In this document: piece by piece, positions 41,433-45,538 of the stretch
Numbering within the stretch: the stretch's first letter is position 1
Layout of the letters: each line of letters opens with the position of its first letter
Source: Halobacteriovorax marinus
Lineage (GTDB): Bacteria > Bdellovibrionota > Bacteriovoracia > Bacteriovoracales > Bacteriovoracaceae
Direction of reading: 5' to 3'
Length of the DNA: 64,000 nucleotides
NCBI GenBank assembly: GCA_002163155.1
Contig: MAAO01000006.1
Location: 744,001 to 808,000, forward strand
Made by a program: the position numbers and the translations under genes
The notes under the pieces: generated by a model
Told to the model about the DNA's origin: nothing
The model's database searches: none
The model's input: only the letters and a program-made list of their open reading frames with translations

Positions 41433-41462
41433 TTGACGAAAACTCAACTTCAAAAATAGAAT
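41433..41462 (+). promoter_or_regulatory. Promoter of the histone-fold gene
   Basis: TTGACG (41433-41438), 18-bp spacer, TAGAAT (41457-41462), about 35 bp upstream of the ATG at 41497. Four of six -10 bases and five of six -35 bases match sigma-70 consensus. Confidence 0.55.
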
Positions 41463-41496
41463 ACTAGAACTATATTAATTTACACTGAGGTTAAAA

Positions 41497-41736
41497 ATGG
41501 CAAAGAAGAAAGCTACTAAAAAAGCAGCAACTAAGAAAAAATCATCTGCAAAGAAAAAGGACATGCTACTTGTAAGTTCTAAAACAAAAGAAGCTTTAAA
41601 AGGTAAGGGATACAATGTATCTTCTGATGCTCTAGAGGCGATGAATGAATATGTTTACTGGTTAGTAGACCAAGCTCAAAAGAAATGTACTGCGAATGGT
41701 AGAAAGACTATCAGACCTTACGATATCTTAGCTTAA
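41497..41736 (+). CDS. Histone-fold protein with N-terminal lysine-rich tail
   Basis: 79 residues. Residues 1-21 (MAKKKATKKAATKKKSSAKK...) contain eleven lysines and resemble histone H1/AlgP-type DNA-binding tails. Residues 22-79 form a single histone fold: short helix (SKTKEALKGKG), long central helix (SSDALEAMNEYVYWLVDQAQKK), then TANGRKTIRPYDILA, the L2 loop and short third helix. The NGRKTIRPYDI stretch matches the GRKTVKAED segment of archaeal histones. Bacterial histones are established in Bdellovibrio; the lysine tail here is extra. It likely packages or bends DNA. Followed by a strong terminator. Confidence 0.88.
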   Translation: MAKKKATKKAATKKKSSAKKKDMLLVSSKTKEALKGKGYNVSSDALEAMNEYVYWLVDQAQKKCTANGRKTIRPYDILA

Positions 41737-41741
41737 TTTCA

Positions 41742-41776
41742 TTTAGGGGCTAATTCTTGGCCCCTAAATTATTTTT
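41742..41776 (+). terminator. Intrinsic terminator of the histone gene
   Basis: TTTAGGGGC (41742-41750) and GCCCCTAAA (41760-41768) form a perfect 9-bp stem with a 9-base loop, then TTATTTTT. Starts 6 bp after the stop. Confidence 0.85.
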
Positions 41777-41860
41777 CACTTCAAATCATCTTAGCTGATA
41801 ACTTTAATTGACTGTTTTTTAGGGACTCCTTATAATATGTGCAATACATAGGAGTTACAC

Positions 41861-44681: not shown

Positions 44682-45116
44682 CTAACTGGCTTTCTTTGTC
44701 ATTTTCTTTGTTACTTTCTTAGATGCTTTCTTGACATCAACGCTCGTCATTTTCTCGATGAGAATTTTTAGAAGCTCACGTTTAAAAGGCTTTTGAATGA
44801 GTGTCACATTGGGCAGAGTATCTAGTCCATATTTGTATTTATCCATTTCTCCTGTCATGAGAAGAATGGGTGTTTCAGAAAATTTTATTATTTCTTGGGA
44901 GAGTCTAATTCCATCTTTTCTTGGCATCATTAAATCTGAAATAATAGCTGAGAAGTTCTGTCTTCTGGCCTTTTGCGAAGCTTCCATACCATCTATCGCT
45001 GTGACAACTCCATAACCTTGATCGCGCAGATAATCGGCCAAGAGTTCTCTATACTCTTCGTTATCTTCAACTAGCAGAATCATTTTCTTTTCTTTTTCCC
45101 AGGAATTCTTACTCAT
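44682..45116 (-). CDS. Response regulator with lysine-rich C-terminal tail
   Basis: 144 residues. Receiver: ILLVEDNEEYRELL, phospho-acceptor in AIISDLMMPRKDG, TPILLMTGE and LIQKPFKREL. The last 20 residues (SVDVKKASKKVTKKMTKKAS) are lysine/threonine/serine-rich like an AlgP- or histone-type tail, so it may contact DNA. Cotranscribed with the receiver gene at 45134. Confidence 0.82.
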   Translation of the reverse strand: MSKNSWEKEKKMILLVEDNEEYRELLADYLRDQGYGVVTAIDGMEASQKARRQNFSAIISDLMMPRKDGIRLSQEIIKFSETPILLMTGEMDKYKYGLDTLPNVTLIQKPFKRELLKILIEKMTSVDVKKASKKVTKKMTKKAS

Positions 45117-45133: not shown

Positions 45134-45538
45134 TTAAGCACTTATATTTTTTGATTTCTTATATTCTGAAATGAGTTTACTGACCAATAAAGGTATAATT
45201 TCTGGTTTAAAAGGTTTTGGCAGCAGCATTACATTCTTTAAATTCTTAAGTCTTATTTCGAAATTTTCTAATTCTCCTGTTATTAAGAGAACCGGTGTTG
45301 TATCCATGGAGATAATTTCATTTGTTAACTTCACTCCATCTTTCTTAGGTAAATTTAGATCAGTAATTATGAGCGCGAAGTCTTGATTCTTCATTTTTAA
45401 AGTTGCCTCTATACCGTCTTTAGCCATGACCACGTTATAACCACCGTGCTCTAAGCTATGAGCGAGAATATCTCTGATCTCTTGGTTATCATCCACGATG
45501 AGAATATAATCCTGTTCGCTCTGTTTTACAGTGAGCAT
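45134..45538 (-). CDS. Single-domain response regulator, paralogue of the neighbour
   Basis: 134 residues; ILIVDDNQEIRDILAHS, phospho-acceptor in ALIITDLNLPKKDG, TPVLLITGELENF and LLPKPFKPE. Very similar to the protein at 44682, so the two arose by tandem duplication, but it lacks the lysine tail (ends SEYKKSKNISA). Confidence 0.83.
   Translation of the reverse strand: MLTVKQSEQDYILIVDDNQEIRDILAHSLEHGGYNVVMAKDGIEATLKMKNQDFALIITDLNLPKKDGVKLTNEIISMDTTPVLLITGELENFEIRLKNLKNVMLLPKPFKPEIIPLLVSKLISEYKKSKNISA

Follow-up and report, generated by a model that had tools for sequence, protein, structure and literature searches.

What kind of histone is encoded at positions 41497–41736 (+) of the window, by which we mean the whole 64,000-nucleotide stretch of Halobacteriovorax marinus DNA analysed here, and what does the lysine-rich tail ahead of its fold do? 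The open reading frame (79 aa, stop codon included in the coordinates) translates to MAKKKATKKAATKKKSSAKKKDMLLVSSKTKEALKGKGYNVSSDALEAMNEYVYWLVDQAQKKCTANGRKTIRPYDILA, with NGRKTIRPYDILA as its C-terminal end. A sequence-only reading had divided the product into a 58-residue core and a 21-residue tail with eleven lysines, and that description stands: the tail comprises residues 1–21 (41497–41559, +), with 11 Lys and no acidic residue, and the core comprises residues 22–79 (41560–41733, +). We consider it probable that the protein is a nucleoid-associated histone, highly expressed in its Bacteriovoracia host and of the alpha3, face-to-face (FtF, HLp-like) type, with a flexible lysine tail that would raise DNA affinity and compaction.

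The gene and its expression signals

The gene encodes a real, conserved protein. Its orthologues are widespread in the same family and are present in named Bacteriovoracaceae and Halobacteriovoraceae (Bdellovibrionota) assemblies, and further ones come from other records, among them some labelled Omnitrophota or Myxococcota. Computed for orthologues within the genus, pN is 0.02–0.07 in the core against a pS of 0.44–0.71, and the core is under strong purifying selection; in the tail pN is 0.08–0.20 against a pS of 0.39–0.70, and a tail pN below pS indicates that the tail is translated as protein. These values, together with a window-wide comparison of lysine content in which no other ORF of at least 100 aa exceeds 6 lysines among residues 1–22 (mean 1.9), rule out a chance lysine-rich ORF.

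A promoter-like sequence, TTGACG-18-TAGAAT, lies upstream of the gene at 41433–41462 (+), and a Shine-Dalgarno sequence, GAGG, is at 41487–41490 (+), 6 nt 5' of the ATG. The -10 region recurs upstream of the histone gene in genus relatives as AAAATA(G/A)AATA, and GAGG likewise precedes the start in these relatives. An intrinsic terminator follows at 41741–41779 (+), with a 13-bp stem, a T tract and an RNA fold z-score of -6.1. Having a promoter-like site and a terminator to itself, the gene looks monocistronic, that is, a single-gene transcription unit. It is flanked by a response-regulator gene on one side and an M23 peptidase gene on the other, and the neighbourhood of M23 peptidase, YdcZ-type transporter, RmuC and bL25 is kept within the genus and partly beyond. 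No conserved operon with a chromosome gene, such as SMC in Leptospira, was found, and the neighbours show no functional link. The idea that the tail results from a mis-called start was rejected: relatives share the GAGG, the initial MAK and the reading frame, and for an internal start at residue M23 the AAGGA is just 1–2 nt off, which is too close.

Codon usage and other DNA-packaging genes

The computed codon adaptation of the histone gene to the ribosomal-protein genes is 0.79, which ranks third of the 74 in the window (mean 0.60), with the ribosomal proteins themselves at 0.62–0.78. Taken as a proxy for expression, this codon usage suggests that the histone is abundant in the cell. Four HU/IHF-like genes are present in the genome as well, two of them scoring 0.83–0.84, so that packaging may not fall mainly to the histone; most likely it is a main nucleoid histone, with the tail adding non-specific DNA contacts.

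The second histone of the genome joins a ZZ-like zinc finger to an HBb-like histone (156 aa; L115:1259-1729 (+), G000:C13:224758-225228) and has a codon adaptation of 0.54. This ZZ histone is widespread in the family.

A single histone fold

Residues 22–79 form a single histone fold, as had been proposed from the letters of the sequence. The search by sequence returned HLp at E=4.5e-12 and HBb at 5e-4, and the profile search returned them at 2.1e-19 and 5.5e-13 respectively. The Pfam histone family PF00808 scores 20.3 bits, slightly under its 21.4-bit cut-off, and a genome-wide PF00808 search missed the window histone at its E cut-off, so that absence in that search means little. In a single-chain AlphaFold2 model built on a 66-sequence alignment, helices are predicted with good confidence at residues 27–35, 43–66 and 74–78, and the tail is of low confidence (pLDDT about 50 or below). 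Three helices with a long alpha2 and a short alpha3 give the modelled chain the prokaryotic alpha3 histone pattern, matching solved histones. Residues 21–77 of the model superpose on HLp with an rmsd of 1.0 Å and 46% identity over 57 residues, and a structure search places them among histones, with HLp, HBb and HTkC (of Thermococcus) on top, and not in another fold. Archaeal nucleosomal and eukaryotic histones rank clearly lower (Z 5.1–5.5 for nucleosomal histones). Nucleosomal histones have a full-length alpha2 and alpha3 and a four-helix-bundle interface; in the window model alpha2 and alpha3 are short.

Which kind of histone

The closest relative by sequence and profile is HLp of Leptospira perolatii (PDB 9QT0-9QT2; PMC12701072), which with HTkC is one of the solved FtF alpha3 histones, and whose tetramer wraps approximately 60 bp of DNA (PMC12701072). 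What defines the FtF class is structural, a tetramer in the shape of a torus. HLp and the window protein share the single alpha3 fold and the N/R/D interface and clamp residues. Read from the sequence alignment, N67, R69, D76 and K63 of the window protein correspond to N53, R55, D62 and R49 of HLp, for which we take the residue roles from PMC12701072. Among the 66 relatives, N67, R69, K70, T71 and D76 are invariant (66/66), which includes the R-x-T...D motif of loop 2 (the RD clamp: R69, T71 and D76), and position 63 is R in 49 and K in 17, the window protein having K. Judged by alignment, the FtF marker residues within the fold (K63, N67, R69, T71 and D76) are thus largely conserved. There are departures from HLp, in that the window protein has a 21-residue lysine tail whereas HLp is 63 residues long with about seven unresolved N-terminal residues, has K instead of the FtF arginine at tetramer position 63, and continues for three residues after D76 where HLp has one, i.e. 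two extra C-terminal residues. Both this lysine and the longer C-terminus mean that the interface could differ from that of HLp.

These departures bear on a second model, in which an HBb/Bd0055-like dimer bends or coats DNA edge-on and forms no face-to-face tetramer. HBb (Bd0055), the dimeric histone of Bdellovibrio bacteriovorus (PDB 8CMP, 8FVX, 9EZZ), shares the short alpha3 fold and the RKT...D motif, its fold match is effectively tied with that of HLp (Z 7.3–7.6 against 7.5–7.7), the host shares its phylum with Bdellovibrio, position 63 is Lys and not Arg, and there are extra C-terminal residues, as in HBb. However, sequence and profile put HLp first by a wide margin, and HLp, not HBb, is the nearest relative. 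HBb is only about 30% identical, has no long tail, and has S and D at the two tetramer positions in the alignment; its hallmark, the absence of the interface Arg and Asn, is not seen here, since every one of the 66 relatives has the Asn together with a basic residue at position 63. In addition, the HBb-like histone of this genome is a separate gene, the ZZ histone. We therefore think an HBb-like dimer unlikely.

In the FtF model that we favor, we infer the oligomeric state, DNA wrapping and role of the tail from these likenesses. The core would dimerise through the histone handshake, and the dimers would probably pair face-to-face through K63, N67 and R69, both by homology, with the tetramer bending or wrapping some 60 bp of DNA around itself as in HLp; wrapping, by this analogy, is plausible. 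Through its charge, the flexible lysine tail would contact the phosphate backbone non-specifically, either on the same duplex or on neighbouring ones, and these contacts would give higher affinity and compaction.

The lysine tail

Among 44 window-type relatives the tail is 5 to 43 residues long, many having just 5–8 residues; one relative with a tail length of 0 probably reflects a start-site call, and two genomes (G051 and G052) were assigned to 'type B' solely on C-terminal length, the tails of both being of window type. The ends are nearly fixed: 37/44 begin with MAK, and 43/44 have K/R and then E/D where the tail joins the core. The interior consists of K, A, T, S and P. Almost every tail among the window-type orthologues keeps a net positive charge, and acidic residues hardly occur outside the core junction. 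No conserved motif beyond MAK...K[E/D] was seen among the relatives, and no DNA tandem repeat was found within the tail. Mapped as a label on the core tree, a weak tree given so short a core, the long tail changes at least three times on well supported branches and 11 times by parsimony.

Such repeated gain or loss, the spread of lengths and the many very short tails are what would be expected if the tail had expanded near-neutrally as low-complexity sequence that does little apart from adding charge. This reading is compatible with the explanation given for the core, although the near-universal net positive charge, the scarcity of acidic residues and a tail pN below pS all speak against it, and we hold it to be possible but doubtful.

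A different reading makes the tail a regulated signalling platform like eukaryotic tails, with lysines that are acetylated or that bind the ZZ-finger histone. There are eleven modifiable lysines and a ZZ-like finger histone in the same genome, and Schwab et al. (PMC11390915) raise the idea that ZZ-finger histones read tails and judge it unlikely. The ZZ histone is found in 14 of 29 genomes with a tail of at least 15 residues against 5 of 17 with a shorter one (Fisher p=0.24, a rough test as the genomes are related), and by genus in 4/10 against 4/9 (p=1.0). The absence of any co-occurrence signal with long tails across the family speaks against the ZZ histone as a tail reader, and the lack of a conserved motif and the low codon adaptation of the ZZ histone also argue against a platform, which we regard as highly improbable.

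The tail pattern fits an expanding, AlgP/H1-type K/A/T repeat that grows and shrinks internally. AlgP/H1-type repeats (PMC9239181) have the same disordered K/A/P/T composition and vary in repeat number, and DNA binding has been reported for the AlgP repeat (PMC9239181), although in AlgP this is a 154-residue C-terminal domain with no histone fold. The earlier description of the tail as H1-like is borne out by its disorder in the model and by this repeat character, and in composition the tail appears closest to H1/AlgP-type repeats, not to the conserved H3 or H4 tails. A more speculative proposal, unlikely in our estimate, treats the tail as a compaction dial that can evolve. In this view the K/A/T repeat inside the tail changes length across the Bacteriovoracia between fixed MAK...K[E/D] ends and, along with the other KKAT-repeat proteins of the genome (pure repeat, SWIB-domain and response regulator), would tune phase behaviour or the bridging of DNA by the histone. 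Were this so, tails would arise by repeat growth, and not by the route proposed for Leptospira histone tails, the gain of a start codon further upstream (PMC10919886).

Three other proteins of the genome carry a K/A/T-type repeat. A single-domain response regulator (PF00072) at 44682–45116 (-) of the window has a lysine-rich C-terminal tail, KKASKKVTKKMTKKAS, and adjoins a similar regulator at 45134–45538 that has none. A 133-aa protein (L129:1381-1782 (+), G000:C1:343880-344281; codon adaptation 0.83) consists of nearly nothing but KKVAKKATKK repeats and is H1/AlgP-like. In a 224-aa protein (L131:1635-2309 (-), G000:C12; codon adaptation 0.82) a KKAT/KKVA repeat of about 140 residues precedes a SWIB/MDM2 domain (PF02201, E 7.8e-29).

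Comparison with other tailed histones

The likeness to eukaryotic core histones suggested by the sequence-only reading is compositional only. A basic N-terminal tail ahead of a histone fold is common to eukaryotic H3/H4, to Asgard tailed histones and to the window protein, and that part of the comparison holds; it does not extend to the fold, where H3/H4 and Asgard histones score a Z of about 5 against 7.7 for HLp and have a longer alpha2 and alpha3, nor to the tails, which are well conserved in eukaryotes (PMC10919886) and here are a K/A/T repeat of variable length.

That reading also held that known bacterial histones lack such a tail, which the literature contradicts: Schwab et al. 2024 (PMC11390915) give positively charged tails for most bacterial FtF histones, a group that includes Bacteriovoracia. 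According to Hocher et al. 2023 (PMC10627809), most bacterial singlet histones have no long tails. The tailed FtF histones of Schwab et al. share with the window protein the organism class, the fold type and the positively charged N-terminal tail, and the window protein may already be in their set. It belongs to an already described kind, as one more tailed bacterial FtF-type histone, and adds a tailed, apparently highly expressed example from a lineage known for predatory bacteria. The many close relatives, which combine a well conserved core with tails of 5 to 43 residues, form a natural length series, convenient for asking what such a tail does free of eukaryotic modification machinery, and how it originates.

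Other histones encountered

Several Bacteriovoracia have, besides the window-type histone, a second FtF-like one that is mostly short-tailed and ends in ...SDF/TDF (loci L083-L099, L151, L153-L156, L158 and L161-L164); it was not found in the genome of the window. A short-tailed histone of this ...SDF/TDF type is also encoded on a 109-kb predicted viral contig from IMG/VR (L121:3004-3195 (+)), where a helicase-like ORF lies on one side of it and a highly acidic repeat protein on the other, and it is a candidate for phage origin. Finally, a contig of a 'Euryarchaeota' MAG (L102:6001-6348) encodes a doublet histone of two folds, with the same NGRKT..D motif ending each half.
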